From NCBI RefSeq assembly GCF_030376605.1, contig NZ_JARRAE010000002.1:62001-126000 (forward strand): 64,000 nt of DNA, read 5' to 3'. The position numbers and the translations under genes are program-made. Shown piece by piece: positions 28,038-36,650 of this stretch. The notes beneath the pieces are model-generated. The model made no database searches. It was not told the DNA's origin and saw only the letters and a list, made by a program, of their open reading frames with translations. Every line of letters begins with the position of its first letter. Position 1 is the stretch's first letter. This DNA is from Pseudochrobactrum sp. sp1633 (GTDB lineage: Bacteria > Pseudomonadota > Alphaproteobacteria > Rhizobiales > Rhizobiaceae).

Positions 28038-28092
28038 CTTGGCGGCTCTCGCCGCCAAAATTCTGGCCTCACTTGGCGGCGAGAGCCGCCAA
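28038..28092 (-). repeat. Twin palindrome, 20-bp inverted repeat spanning a stop codon
   Basis: TTGGCGGC-TCTC-GCCGCCAA (28039-28058) and TTGGCGGC-GAGA-GCCGCCAA (28073-28092) are each palindromic with 8-bp arms. They are also perfect reverse complements of each other over 20 bp with a 14-nt spacer. Flanks match in direct orientation too (34-nt period, shared AAAATTCT). The right copy encodes the last residues of the M20 peptidase, and its stop codon (28069-28071) falls in the loop. No T-run follows, so it may stabilise or process the mRNA rather than terminate it. Confidence 0.75.
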
Positions 28093-29460
28093 AATTCTTG
28101 CCCATGAGCGCTGGCCTTTATGGAAGGAGGACAGTTCGTATTTTTCATTTGGTGAATGGATGCGGTCGTCTTCAAGGCCGAAACCGACCAGCAGGGAATC
28201 CATACCGAGGAATTTGTCGAAGTCACCGACAATCGGAATGGAACCGCCCATAGCAATCAGCACCGCAGGATTTGGCCATTCGTCAGACAAAGCCTGTTTG
28301 GCCTGTGTGACCAGTGGTGAATCATAGGAGAGCTGGATGGCCGGTGAGCCGCCATGCGGGTGGAATTCCACGCGGCAATCGGCAGGAAGACGGGCTTCCA
28401 CGAATTTGCGGAAATTCGCACGGATTTTAGCCGGATCCTGCTTGTGTACGAGGCGAAACGACACTTTGGCAGAGGCTTCTGCGGCGATAACAGTCTTGAA
28501 ACCTTCGCCGGTATAGCCGCCGATCATGCCGTTGACTTCAGCAGTCGGGCGCGCCCATGTTTGCTCCAGAACACTGCGACCCTGTTCACCTGATGGCACG
28601 GAAAGACCGATAGGGCCGAGGAAGTTCTCAGGGGTGCGGCCAAGACCTTCCCATGATTTCAAAATCTGGCTCGGTGTTTCTTCCACGCCTTCATAAAAAT
28701 CTTCCACAGTCACGCGACCGGTTTCATCATGCAGGTCGGCAAGGATTTTTGACAGCACATGCAGCGGGTTGGCAGCAGCACCACCGAAGAAGCCGGAATG
28801 CAGATCGCGGTCTGCGGCTTTAATGGTGATTTCTTCGCCGACCAGCCCGCGCAGGCCAACGCAAATGGCCGGTGTGTCACGGTTCCACATCGAGGTATCA
28901 CAGACCAGTGCAACGTCTGCTTTAAGCTCTTCTTTGTGGCTGTCGAGGAATGGCTTGAGCGATGGTGAACCGGATTCTTCTTCACCTTCAAACAGGATAG
29001 TTACTTTCACCGGCAGCTGGCCATGCACGGCTTTATAGGCGCGGGCTGCTTCGACAAAAGTCATCAACTGGCCTTTGTCGTCGGATGTACCGCGACCGGT
29101 CAGGATTTTGCGTCCGGCTTCAACTTCTTTAACAGCAGGATCAAACGGGTCGTTTTCCCAGAGGTTCAGCGGGTCAACCGGCTGTACGTCGTAATGGCCG
29201 TAAAACAGCACATGCGGGGCATCTGCAGTCGGGCCTTCATGATGGGCGACAACCATCGGATGTCCCGGTGTGTCGCGCACACTTGCATCAAAACCAATGC
29301 TTTTCAGGTCTTCTACCAGCCATTCCGCAGCTTTGCGGCAATCCGCTTTGAAAGCCGGATCTGTTGAAATGGATTTGATGCGCAGGAGATCAAACAGATG
29401 ATCGACACTGTTATCGAGATTTTTGTCAAGATGCTGAAGAACAGGCTCAAGTGCAGACAT
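28069..29460 (-). CDS. M20-family metallopeptidase (dipeptidase-like)
   Basis: Zinc-dependent M20/M25/M40 peptidase of 463 residues, cytoplasmic by its lack of signal peptide. Metal-site motifs are YGHYDVQP (His/Asp), GTSDDKGQ (bridging Asp) and EGEEESGSPSL (catalytic Glu and ligand). The lid/dimerisation domain follows at about residues 200-330. Family members cleave dipeptides or N-acyl amino acids; substrate is unknown here. The final codons form one arm of the 20-bp inverted repeat. It is upstream of nrnC. Confidence 0.9.
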   Translation of the reverse strand: MSALEPVLQHLDKNLDNSVDHLFDLLRIKSISTDPAFKADCRKAAEWLVEDLKSIGFDASVRDTPGHPMVVAHHEGPTADAPHVLFYGHYDVQPVDPLNLWENDPFDPAVKEVEAGRKILTGRGTSDDKGQLMTFVEAARAYKAVHGQLPVKVTILFEGEEESGSPSLKPFLDSHKEELKADVALVCDTSMWNRDTPAICVGLRGLVGEEITIKAADRDLHSGFFGGAAANPLHVLSKILADLHDETGRVTVEDFYEGVEETPSQILKSWEGLGRTPENFLGPIGLSVPSGEQGRSVLEQTWARPTAEVNGMIGGYTGEGFKTVIAAEASAKVSFRLVHKQDPAKIRANFRKFVEARLPADCRVEFHPHGGSPAIQLSYDSPLVTQAKQALSDEWPNPAVLIAMGGSIPIVGDFDKFLGMDSLLVGFGLEDDRIHSPNEKYELSSFHKGQRSWARILAALAAK

Positions 29461-29565
29461 GTTACCCTCATAATAAAGCAGGCTGCGACTCGTAGCCTTG
29501 CTCAGATGACTGAAATTCCGGATCGTTTTAACTTATATGCCCGCGGACTGTACAGGGAAGATATT

Positions 29566-29705
29566 GGGGCAAAATAAAAGCCGTTACGGTGAGGGGAACC
29601 GTAACGGCTTATAATAATTGGTGGCAGCCAGAGGGGGGGGAGGCTACCACCCCTGTTTTTCGACGGGGGACATGCCGAAAAACGGAAACCGACAATCTTG
29701 CCGAT
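29566..29705 (-). ncRNA. Candidate small RNA with three C-rich-loop hairpins
   Basis: On the minus strand three stems follow each other. GTTTTTCG/CGAAAAAC (29683-29655) has a loop holding TCCCCC. GGTGGTAGCC/GGCTGCCACC (29651-29620) has a loop of mostly C. AAGCCGTTACGGT/ACCGTAACGGCTT (29610-29578) has loop TCCCCTC and is followed by TTATTTT, a proper terminator. A possible promoter, TTGAAT (29739-29734), 18 bp, CATTAG (29715-29710), predicts a start near 29703. C-rich loops matching the anti-Shine-Dalgarno sequence are known in alphaproteobacterial sRNA families such as alpha-r14. Membership is inference. It lies between the M20 peptidase gene and polA. Confidence 0.65.
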
Positions 29706-29884
29706 GTGCCTAATGTGGCCAGAAATAGTGGCGATTCAAGGGCTGAATGAGGGCGGCGCAGTCACAAAAAAGTTATTGCTTATGAAGCCATGTTCCGGAA
29801 CCGGAGAGAAAAAGGGAGTTTATTTTTCACGACTGCGCGCGGTGCGATTTCTTTTTTCCTGCTAATGCTTTACATCTTTTGACC

Positions 29885-32821
29885 ATGAAAAAAGGTGATC
29901 ATCTCTTCCTCGTCGACGGCTCCGGCTATATTTTTCGCGCTTATCATGCGTTGCCGCCGCTGACCCGTAAATCTGACGGTTTGCCGGTTGGTGCGGTGTC
30001 CGGTTTCTGCAATATGCTGTGGAAGCTGCTCAAAGATGCGCGCAATACGGATGTCGGTGTGGTGCCGACGCATTTTGCTGTGATTTTCGATTATTCGTCG
30101 CAGACTTTCCGCAAAGAGCTCTATCCGGAATATAAGGCTAACCGCACGGCACCGCCGGAAGACCTGATCCCGCAATTCGGTCTGATCCGTCAGGCGACCC
30201 ATGCTTTCAACTTGCCTTGCATCGAAAAAGAGGGTTTTGAGGCGGATGATATTATCGCTACCTATGCCCGTCTTGCGGAAGAGGCCGGTGCTACGGTCAC
30301 GATTATCTCGTCAGACAAAGACCTGATGCAGCTCGTGACGAACCAAGTCTCCATGTATGACGGCATGAAGGATAAGCAGATTTCAATCCCTGAAGTGATT
30401 GAAAAATGGGGCGTTCCGCCGGAGAAAATGATCGACCTGCAATCGCTGACCGGCGATTCAACCGATAATGTACCGGGTATTCCTGGCATCGGGCCGAAGA
30501 CGGCAGCGCAATTGCTTGAAGAATTCGGTGATCTCGACACGCTGCTTGCTCGTGCTTCCGAGATTAAACAGAATAAACGCCGCGAGAATATTATCGCTTT
30601 TGCTGATCAGACCCGTATTGCCCGCCAGCTTGTCACGCTGAAAAATGATGTGCCGCTGGAAGTTGATCTCGATGGTCTGATGCTGGAGCCGCAGGACGGA
30701 CCGAAACTGATCGGCTTCCTGAAAGCGATGGAATTGACCTCGCTGACCCGCCGTGTGGCAGAGGCAACAGATACAGTTGCAGCCGAAATTGAGCCGATTA
30801 CCGTAGAGACTGAGTGGGGCACGCAAGCACGCGGCCCTGATCTTGATCGCGGAACGGAAACGACGACCGCTTCCGCGCCGGAAAAGGTGATTTCTGCTGA
30901 AACAGCGAGCGACAAATTTATGCGGCCGCAGGCTCTGGTGGAAGCGCGTAAGGCACAAGGCGCAGCAACGCAAATTGATCATTCTGCCTATATCGGGATT
31001 ACCGATATTGCAGTGTTGAAAGACTGGGTTGATCAGGCGATTGAGCAGGGTTTCGTGGCGTTTGACACGGAAACCACTTCGCTTGATCCGATGCAGGCCG
31101 AGCTGGTCGGTTTCTCTCTGGCATTGGCGGCAGGCAAGGCCTGTTATGTGCCGCTGATCCACAAATCCGGTCAGGGTGATCTGCTCGGCGGCGGGCTGAT
31201 TGACGGACAGGTTCCACTCGGGGCTGCACTCGCAGAACTGAAGCGCCTGCTGGAAAATCCGTCTGTTCTGATCATTGCCCAGAATATGAAATATGACTGG
31301 CTGGTCATGCATCGTCTTGGCGTAGATATTGCGCGTTTTGACGACACGATGCTGCTGTCCTATGCGCTGGATGCAGGCACCGGCACGCATGGCATGGATG
31401 CGCTGGCAGAGCGCTGGCTCGGACACACAACAATTCCTTACAAAGATGTCGCCGGCACCGGTAAATCGGCCGTGACTTTTGACATGGTGCCGATTGATCG
31501 CGCTATCGCTTATGGTGCGGAAGATGCCGATGTAACGCTGTGCCTGTGGCAGGTACTGAAGCCGCGTCTGGCTGCAAATGGCATGGCCTCGGTCTATGAG
31601 CGGCTGGAACGGCCGCTGGTCACAGTTCTGGCATTGATGGAAGAACGCGGCGTCACGGTTGACCGGCAAATTCTCTCCCGCTTGTCAGGTGATCTGGCGC
31701 AGTCTGCTGCGGCCATTGAGGATGAGATTTACACGCTTGCCGGTGAGAAAATGAATATCGCCTCGCCCAAGCAGCTCGGCGATATTCTGTTTGGCAAGCT
31801 CGGGCTTCCGGGTGGTTCAAAAACCAAAACCGGTCAATGGTCGACTTCCGCTCAGGTGCTGGAAGATCTGGCAGCGGAAGGTCATGAGCTGCCGCGCAAG
31901 ATTGTTGACTGGCGCCAGCTTACCAAACTCAAATCCACTTATACGGATGCGCTGCCCGGTTATATTCATCCGCAGACCAAGCGGGTGCATACATCCTATT
32001 CTATGGCGGTAACGACCACAGGACGTCTGTCCTCATCGGAGCCGAACCTGCAGAATATTCCGGTTCGCACAGCAGAAGGCCGCAAAATCCGCACGGCCTT
32101 TGTGGCACCGCAGGGCAAAAAGCTGGTCTCTGCTGACTATAGCCAGATTGAACTGCGTGTTCTGGCGCATGTCGCGGATATTCAGCAGCTTAAAAAAGCC
32201 TTTGATGATGGTATAGACATTCATGCGATGACGGCCTCTGAAATGTTTGGCGTGCCGGTGGAAGGAATGCCGTCCGAAGTACGTCGTCGAGCTAAAGCGA
32301 TCAATTTCGGCATTATTTACGGTATTTCGGCCTTTGGTCTTGCTAATCAGCTGTCTATTCCGCGTGAAGAGGCAGGGTCTTATATCCGTACCTATTTTGA
32401 GCGCTTCCCCGGCATCAAGGACTATATGGAAGCGACCAAGGCAACGGCGCGTGAAAACGGCTATGTCGAAACGATTTTCGGTCGCCGTATTCATTATCCG
32501 GAGATCAAGGCCAGCAATCCGCAGGTGCGTGCTTTCAATGAGCGTGCAGCTATCAACGCACCTATTCAGGGCTCGGCTGCAGATATTATCCGCCGCGCGA
32601 TGATCCGTATGGAACCGGCACTGGCACAAGCAAAGCTCGATGCGCAAATGCTGTTGCAGGTGCATGACGAACTGATCTTCGAGGTCGATGATGCACAGGT
32701 TGACCGCACGATTGAGGTGGTGCGTGAAGTAATGGTCAATGCGGCAATGCCTGCTGTTTCGATGGCCGTGCCGTTGCAGGTTGATGCCAGAGCCGCGCAA
32801 AACTGGGATGAGGCGCATTGA
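29885..32821 (+). CDS. polA: DNA polymerase I
   Basis: PolA (978 residues) fills gaps and removes primers. The N-terminal 5'-3' exonuclease begins KKGDHLFLVDGSGYIFRA. The 3'-5' proofreading domain is intact, with FDTETTSLDP, NMKYDWLVM and YGAEDADVTL. The polymerase domain has DYSQIELRVLAH, the O-helix RRRAKAINFGIIYGIS and QVHDELIFEV. ATG 29885 fits family N-termini, yet the preceding 20 nt show no ribosome-binding site; TTG 29879 is the only nearby alternative. It is followed by a hairpin at 32857-32884. Confidence 0.97.
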   Translation: MKKGDHLFLVDGSGYIFRAYHALPPLTRKSDGLPVGAVSGFCNMLWKLLKDARNTDVGVVPTHFAVIFDYSSQTFRKELYPEYKANRTAPPEDLIPQFGLIRQATHAFNLPCIEKEGFEADDIIATYARLAEEAGATVTIISSDKDLMQLVTNQVSMYDGMKDKQISIPEVIEKWGVPPEKMIDLQSLTGDSTDNVPGIPGIGPKTAAQLLEEFGDLDTLLARASEIKQNKRRENIIAFADQTRIARQLVTLKNDVPLEVDLDGLMLEPQDGPKLIGFLKAMELTSLTRRVAEATDTVAAEIEPITVETEWGTQARGPDLDRGTETTTASAPEKVISAETASDKFMRPQALVEARKAQGAATQIDHSAYIGITDIAVLKDWVDQAIEQGFVAFDTETTSLDPMQAELVGFSLALAAGKACYVPLIHKSGQGDLLGGGLIDGQVPLGAALAELKRLLENPSVLIIAQNMKYDWLVMHRLGVDIARFDDTMLLSYALDAGTGTHGMDALAERWLGHTTIPYKDVAGTGKSAVTFDMVPIDRAIAYGAEDADVTLCLWQVLKPRLAANGMASVYERLERPLVTVLALMEERGVTVDRQILSRLSGDLAQSAAAIEDEIYTLAGEKMNIASPKQLGDILFGKLGLPGGSKTKTGQWSTSAQVLEDLAAEGHELPRKIVDWRQLTKLKSTYTDALPGYIHPQTKRVHTSYSMAVTTTGRLSSSEPNLQNIPVRTAEGRKIRTAFVAPQGKKLVSADYSQIELRVLAHVADIQQLKKAFDDGIDIHAMTASEMFGVPVEGMPSEVRRRAKAINFGIIYGISAFGLANQLSIPREEAGSYIRTYFERFPGIKDYMEATKATARENGYVETIFGRRIHYPEIKASNPQVRAFNERAAINAPIQGSAADIIRRAMIRMEPALAQAKLDAQMLLQVHDELIFEVDDAQVDRTIEVVREVMVNAAMPAVSMAVPLQVDARAAQNWDEAH

Positions 32822-36267: not shown

Positions 36268-36296
36268 TTGACCGTGAAGCGGTGCATTGTTATCGC
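36268..36296 (+). promoter_or_regulatory. Probable promoter of the cobalamin riboswitch/btu operon
   Basis: TTGACC (36268-36273), a 17-bp spacer and TATCGC (36291-36296) precede the riboswitch by about a dozen bases. The -35 is good; the -10 is weak. Confidence 0.5.
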
Positions 36297-36303
36297 TTTA
36301 TAT

Positions 36304-36475
36304 GGAAAAGGTTTTGCTCTTCGCAGCAAATGAAAAGGGAACACGGTGCTTAATCCGTGACTGCCCCCGCAACTGTATTCGGTGAGCGGCCTCCGGTAAG
36401 CCACTGCCCTTGTGGGCGGGAAGGCGGAGTGTCCGTGATGACCCGTAAGTCAGGAGACCTGCCTTTTTTGGTCAC
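36304..36475 (+). ncRNA. Cobalamin riboswitch
   Basis: The conserved blocks of the B12 riboswitch occur in order: GGGAACACGGTG, CCGTGACTGCCCCCGCAACTG, the B12-box GCCACTG (36400-36406), GGGCGGGAAGG, and GACCCGTAAGTCAGGAGACC. It lies in the leader of btuB. Downstream, GTCACC (36471-36476) can pair with GGTGAC (36520-36525), a likely part of the expression platform. Adenosylcobalamin should repress the operon. No gene is read from the 465 bp between the Ldh2 gene and btuB. Confidence 0.95.
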
Positions 36476-36650
36476 CAGCCGGTGCACGAGGGGTGCGAAG
36501 GCGCGGACGTCCGTGACGGTGACATTGTTAAAATGTTGCCGCATGCGGATATGTGACTGTTATTTCAGCCTGTTTCAGCTGCGGTTTGTATTATTCAGGG
36601 CAATGTTACGTTGAAAGCGCGTTGCATTGTCTGCACTCAGGCGGGACAGC

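Follow-up and report, generated by a model that had tools for sequence, protein, structure and literature searches.

The minus-strand hairpins beside polA in a Pseudochrobactrum genome belong to the alpha-r7 small RNA family

The closest described system is the alpha-r7 (ar7) RNA of Sinorhizobium meliloti, known under the names SmrC7, sra03, sm13 and SmelC023 and, in Rhizobium etli, as ReC06. The S. meliloti gene (SmrC7 = sra03 = SmelC023) lies between polA and SMc02851, and Northern blotting and TAP-RACE have yielded, according to the accessible portions of that report, a primary RNA of 148-150 nt and a processed RNA of 106 nt, with the RNA being some 13-fold more abundant in nodules (PMC2780559). 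Two later surveys, again as far as their accessible text goes, describe three or four hairpins with conserved loops, base-pair exchanges in the stems and a position next to polA, and they include members from the Brucellaceae and Phyllobacteriaceae (PMC2245857; PMC3927594), with one named exception to the adjacency (PMC3927594). The available text of a study with tagged Hfq states that SmrC7 was not detected, and its authors considered affinity to be absent or very low (PMC2848018); dependence on Hfq is hence not to be assumed.

Other small RNAs of the Alphaproteobacteria offer useful comparisons. The alpha-r14 family (RF02344, NfeR1) has a similar plan, in which several hairpins present anti-Shine-Dalgarno motifs unpaired in their loops (PMC7143759). 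According to the available text, AbcR2 (alpha-r15) in S. meliloti has an RpoH1-dependent promoter with CTTGAA, a box found also in the candidate promoter described below, and uses anti-Shine-Dalgarno motifs to silence translation (PMC8844928); its model, RF02345, has no match at our locus at E ≤ 10. SmelA075 and SmelA099 are reported to carry the anti-Shine-Dalgarno word CCUCCUCCC in every loop (PMC3927594), and this is not so here, where the three loops read AUGUCCCCC, UCCCCCCCCUCU and UCCCCUC.

The window analysed in this work is a stretch of 64,000 nt from Pseudochrobactrum sp. sp1633 (contig NZ_JARRAE010000002.1), and the minus-strand hairpins beside its polA gene are the Pseudochrobactrum copy of alpha-r7 (Table 1). 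The Rfam model RF02342 ('ar7') matches the locus over its full length, positions 1-145 of 145, with 80.1 bits against a gathering cut-off of 60 and an E-value of 1.1e-13, and has this one match in the source genome. At a permissive threshold the runner-up family reached 22 bits against its own cut-off of 95, and suhB (RF00519) is absent from the five Rfam matches at the locus at E ≤ 10. The first-pass annotation had pointed to alphaproteobacterial small RNAs with C-rich loops, naming alpha-r14, and had proposed a search with covariance models that included suhB; the general description was apt, and the search returned a known family, ar7, rather than either of those named. With other members the locus shares the full-length model match, the hairpin plan, the GUCCCCC loop, the terminator and the polA neighbour. 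Unlike them, the genus lacks an upstream palindrome and has a loop 2 that reads CCCCCCCC(C)UCU in all seven of its genomes, where CCCCUCUCC stands in 110 of the 126 loci compared. This is an ordinary, well conserved small RNA gene, in which the lineage-specific differences are modest. The essential description of the element is already published, since the S. meliloti homologue and the surveys cover transcript, loops, stems and polA; what is new here are the stem covariation figures, a synteny that follows polA rather than the M20 peptidase gene, the CTTGAA -35 box, and an upstream palindrome that the genus has lost.

Table 1. Features of the alpha-r7 locus and its surroundings, in window coordinates
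Feature	Position	Strand	Basis
alpha-r7 (ar7) sRNA gene, predicted transcript of about 136 nt	29571-29706	minus	Rfam match 29706-29575
Small 5' hairpin, 7 pairs, loop AGAU	29688-29705	minus	minimum-energy fold
Hairpin 1, loop AUGUCCCCC at 29673-29665	29652-29685	minus	fold
Hairpin 2, loop UCCCCCCCCUCU at 29641-29630	29620-29651	minus	covariation
Hairpin 3, terminator stem of 13 pairs, loop UCCCCUC at 29597-29591	29578-29610	minus	TTATTTT after stem
-35 element CTTGAA, possibly RpoH-type	29735-29740	minus	conserved upstream regions
Putative -10 region CCACAT, 16 nt after CTTGAA	29713-29718	minus	upstream alignment
GTGAC, aligning with left half of the palindrome; right half absent	29761-29765	minus	upstream alignment
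Nine-codon frame MSPVEKQGW, judged chance	29644-29673	minus	
polA, divergent conserved neighbour	29879-32821	plus	Pfam DNA_pol_A and exonuclease domains
M20 peptidase gene, downstream neighbour	28069-29460	minus	Pfam Peptidase_M20

Between the M20 peptidase gene and polA, the minus strand does hold the three hairpins with C-run loops that had been read from the sequence, and the last of them has, as claimed, 13 perfect pairs followed by TTATTTT, a Rho-independent terminator at the 3' end of the gene. The anticipated transcript of 135-140 nt agrees with the length that we predict. That inventory had overlooked the small 5' hairpin; minimum-energy folding closes a hairpin within the first 32 nt in 106 of 111 distinct family sequences. 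The fold of 29705-29560 has an energy of -61.9 kcal/mol; the 200 dinucleotide-preserving shuffles of this stretch average -34.5 (z = -7.7), and none was as good. The C runs of the three loops are unpaired with a probability of at least 0.96. Loop 2 contains an uninterrupted C8, for which a sequencing error had been feared; 8 or 9 C are present in each of the seven genus genomes, and the run is therefore no sequencing slip.

In alpha-r7, conserved loop sequences sit on stems with compensatory changes, and a search for such changes in relatives, which had been proposed as a check, found them in abundance. The 22 pairs of hairpins 2 and 3 that were counted in an alignment of 34 relatives have 96.8% of their cells paired, compared with 80.7% in shuffles, and 18 of the 22 have changed on both sides in some sequence. 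Taken by hairpin, changes on both sides occur in at least one of the 34 sequences for 9 of 10 pairs in hairpin 2 (97.3% of cells paired) and for 9 of the 12 counted pairs in hairpin 3 (96.3%). On four of five measures none of 500 shuffles was as high, while 32 were as high on the fifth, the number of further pair types; when the partners were slid by 1-3 columns, the paired cells dropped to 26-57%. The first helix given by RNAalifold (columns 20-22 with 42-44) joins neighbouring hairpins by misalignment and was left out of the pair count; the covariance model R1 still contained this helix and served for finding loci alone. Hairpin 1 was tested separately, with the sequences anchored on GUCCCCC. 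This anchor occurs in 108 distinct sequences. The three pairs below the loop form in 108, 107 and 108 of them, and the minimum-energy fold places GUCCCCC in the hairpin 1 loop in 83, at least 5 pairs being required.

In loop 1, GUCCCCC is shared by 108 of the 111 distinct sequences (by 123 when all 126 loci are counted), the exceptions being L018, L020 and L064, the last of which is one C short; the loop 2 word CCCCUCU is kept in 123 of the 126 loci, and loop 3 has CCUCC or CCCUC in 115. One of the sequences (row L022 of alignment A2) is probably from S. meliloti or a close relative, because its Rfam match of 150 nt and its initial GAG fit the published length and start sites, two G residues two bases apart (PMC2780559). 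The processing site of the S. meliloti homologue has been given as 201723 (PMC2780559). Counting by hand, we infer that this cut would fall in the C run of loop 1, at about 29668 in the window, so that hairpins 2 and 3 would stay intact.

Upstream of the gene, the region of the -35 box is strongly conserved. Of 113 distinct upstream regions, 103 have CTTGAA at a distance of 30-40 nt before the start of the small RNA and 108 have CTTGWA there; 106 have CTTGAA somewhere within the 120 nt upstream. We use the count at fixed distance because a count made anywhere takes in CTTGTA from the palindrome in some genomes. Among the seven genus genomes, that of the window and L015 carry CTTGAA, and CTTGTA stands in the remaining five. 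The usual -10 forms in relatives are CCAAAT and CACAAAT, and CTTGAA-N15-17-CCANAT is found in 58 of the 113 regions. Compared with the S. meliloti RpoH1 consensus, CTTGAA-N16-CCTATAT (PMC8844928), the window's CTTGAA-N16-CCACAT fits at -35 and partly at -10, and this weak match makes the -10 assignment provisional. The alpha-r7 promoter is thus described here as possibly RpoH-type. A review table lists both RpoD and RpoH1/2 for SmelC023 (PMC7143759), and ReC06 of R. etli is reported to be raised by heat shock (PMC4167512). Against the RpoH reading stand the incomplete -10 fit, CTTGTA in five of the seven genus genomes, and earlier work, whose accessible text contains a predicted sigma-70 promoter for the homologue (PMC2780559; PMC2573895), a putative UlaR site given with that promoter (PMC2780559) and, in one survey, the statement that no promoter was found (PMC2245857). 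In the window, a strict sigma-70 scan of 29300-30000 detected no promoter. The pair TTGAAT-18 bp-CATTAG that the first-pass annotation had put forward does exist, at 29739-29710, and its region is conserved, the conserved part being CTTGAA at -35.

Farther upstream, a palindrome TTAC-N6-GTAA starts 59-85 nt before the small RNA in 99 of the 113 distinct upstream regions. It is found in none of the seven genus genomes and is missing also in 7 of the 106 other regions; with 99 of 106 carrying the element elsewhere, we conclude that the genus has lost it. A strict form of the pattern had no match in 25 genomes. The form GTTAC-N5-TGTAAY has exactly one site in each of 8 chosen genomes, and seven of these sites are at the alpha-r7 locus, compared with 11 matches in all when the pattern is read backwards in the same 8 genomes. 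At the stringency used, which leaves weaker sites possible, the palindrome seems to be almost private to the alpha-r7 promoter in relatives, and neither the strict search of 25 genomes nor the looser one of 8 gave a regulon or a regulator.

What the loops might pair with was approached by scanning the source genome for their complements 3-13 nt before ATG, with each pattern read backwards as control. The complements of loop 3 (GAGGGGA, 39 against 14) and of loop 2 (AGAGGGG, 35 against 15) are in excess, whereas that of loop 1 (GGGGGAC, 7 against 16) is rarer than its control. The 8-mer CGGGGGAC, likewise complementary to loop 1, occurs once against seven in the control, and the single site lies inside a longer frame, presumably that of a LysR-type regulator. 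A Shine-Dalgarno-like motif unrelated to the loops gave 79 against 24, an excess that loops 2 and 3 do not surpass; theirs therefore shows a capacity for pairing with ribosome-binding sites, nothing more. All three loops had been described as anti-Shine-Dalgarno-like, a name that suits loops 2 and 3 and finds no support for loop 1. Nearly invariant and with no excess of complements, loop 1 thus behaves differently from the other two.

The scan provided 67 sites, duplicates included, which correspond to 30 distinct ATG frames of at least 70 aa; 14 matches without a locus (9 of GAGGGGA and 5 of AGAGGGG, some at the same places) were left out. By Pfam, for 25 of 36 families and with translations, parts of ABC transporters make up at least 8 of the 30 (five SBP_bac_5 and one each of SBP_bac_3, ABC_tran and BPD_transp_1, among the matches listed), against 2 of 15 control frames drawn from 30 of the 79 matches to the unrelated motif. 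The difference has a Fisher p of 0.46, and we hence claim no regulon. For loop 1, the strongest duplex, in one genome, is at L177, in a frame without a Pfam match. A separate observation concerns L176, where a 108-aa frame has GGGGGACAUUC before its ATG, a 9-nt match to loop 1 of the window RNA; its CCCCC/GGGGG pair could form a hairpin of its own, and this frame also has no Pfam match. A target for loop 2 has been suggested in the literature, in the 5' region of an operon with zapA (PMC2245857). Across 19 genomes, the longest Watson-Crick match around the DUF4164 gene was 4 to 6 nt and in no genome clearly exceeded what random stretches of that locus gave, the lowest fraction as good being 0.23; the suggestion thus finds no support in these genomes. 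The DUF4164 gene is the one that we take to be Smc03977. Among the open-access papers listed by name searches there was no functional study of alpha-r7, and the accessible text named no verified target.

We think it probable that the Pseudochrobactrum alpha-r7 RNA is an independent transcript of about 136 nt whose loops 2 and 3 act in trans, while loop 1 makes another contact. Both the type of promoter and the mode of action are inferred. Transcription would start from the CTTGAA promoter and end at the 13-pair terminator. Hairpins 2 and 3, whose covarying stems keep the C-rich loops open, would pair through these loops with G-rich ribosome-binding sites, and this pairing would hinder the translation of several mRNAs in trans. 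The GUCCCCC loop of hairpin 1, about where the S. meliloti RNA is cut, probably makes a different contact. We would suggest more tentatively, as a rather doubtful extension, that the RNA has been rewired in Pseudochrobactrum, by the loss of a near-private palindrome and a change in the loop 2 seed, with loop 1 being kept for a contact other than ribosome-binding sites. If this were true, alpha-r7 would be a two-headed small RNA, whose conserved head without anti-Shine-Dalgarno character is either set free or destroyed when loop 1 is cut. The loop comparison, the possible control of heat-shock type and the promoter element make the role of alpha-r7 more testable.

An unlikely alternative is that the C-rich loops mainly bind a protein or sequester another RNA, pairing with mRNAs being secondary. 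It would account for a loop 1 that is nearly invariant and has no excess of complements before start codons, and it sits well with the failure to detect Hfq binding for SmrC7 in the accessible report (PMC2848018). However, the words of loops 2 and 3 are mostly kept (123 and 115 of 126 loci), as expected if they pair with ribosome-binding sites. We know of no protein partner of alpha-r7, which also counts against protein binding.

The neighbouring genes bear on whether the transcript is independent at all. In the window the polA gene starts 173 nt from alpha-r7 and diverges from it; the M20 protein has P. saccharolyticum, P. kiredjianiae and P. asaccharolyticum among its nearest named records, at 97-98% identity. 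Of 126 loci, 120 have a divergent polA upstream of alpha-r7 (110 of 116 once duplicates are merged); among the six without it is L109, whose contig stops 69 nt upstream of the small RNA. Loci were also fetched by their M20 protein, and ar7 is present in 78 of the 80 named ones. The element could instead be a 5' leader of the M20 peptidase gene, an attenuator with hairpin 3 as its conditional terminator, given that it shares the strand of that gene, lies 115 nt before it in the window and is within 300 nt of it in 65 of the 78 loci. In the other 13, however, the gap exceeds 300 nt and extends up to 2.4 kb, and polA still adjoins the small RNA in 11 of these (it was not found in L084 and L086); in the two named loci that lack ar7, polA is likewise absent from the stretch examined, and no known leader family matches our locus in a permissive Rfam search (E ≤ 10). 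It is polA, rather than the M20 gene, that alpha-r7 accompanies, and on this synteny we consider the leader very improbable.

Even less credit is due to a tiny mRNA encoding MSPVEKQGW or a longer peptide. A frame of nine codons from ATG to stop does exist, but three of the seven genus genomes lack the ATG, and in one of the other four it opens a frame of 29 codons instead; counting duplicates, the ATG is found in 8 of 126 loci, and we judge the frame to be due to chance, as had been suspected. Finally, membership in alpha-r14, whose loops carry anti-Shine-Dalgarno motifs on a like plan (PMC7143759), has a negligible chance of being correct and is discarded because the covariance models tell the two families apart, RF02344 having no match here at E ≤ 10 and two members over the cut-off elsewhere in the genome (G000:C12:232789-232904 and G000:C4:14789-14910).

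The alpha-r7 RNA, an element already catalogued, is very widespread in the Rhizobiaceae as GTDB defines that family: 335 of 394 sampled genomes have a match at E ≤ 0.001, 282 of them over the cut-off, and 94 of 109 genera are represented, in a survey with stricter filters at which weak matches are lost. None was detected in 16 genomes from other families of the order, nor, in either survey, in a control panel of 14 genomes. Mesorhizobium loci in our set do carry ar7; for Mesorhizobium huakuii 7653R, the accessible text of one report states that Smr7C was not discovered (PMC5596092).

A few further observations can be recorded. Two ar7 matches per genome, possibly paralogues, were found in G106 and others of g101 and in G180 (g96), G283 (g75) and G054 (g49). 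In a much reduced genome of 1.1 Mb (G012, locus L020), ar7 scores 27.1 bits, below the cut-off, beside polA; this copy is without GUCCCCC and retains a CCCTTGAAA box as well as C-rich words that resemble those in loops 2 and 3, and an M20 gene was not found within the locus. Of 20 loci scanned, four (L126, L119, L080 and L075) have other alpha-r small RNAs, ar14, ar35 and ar15, which lie on the opposite strand and downstream of the M20 gene. The window also has a cobalamin riboswitch (RF00174, 133.6 bits) at 36292-36480 on the plus strand. Lastly, a record titled Bacillus subtilis SK6B4 (L051, JAHREI010000001.1) carries a Pseudochrobactrum-like polA-ar7-M20 region, with 97% identity in the M20 protein and 98% in the N-terminus of PolA, and appears to be mislabelled or contaminated.
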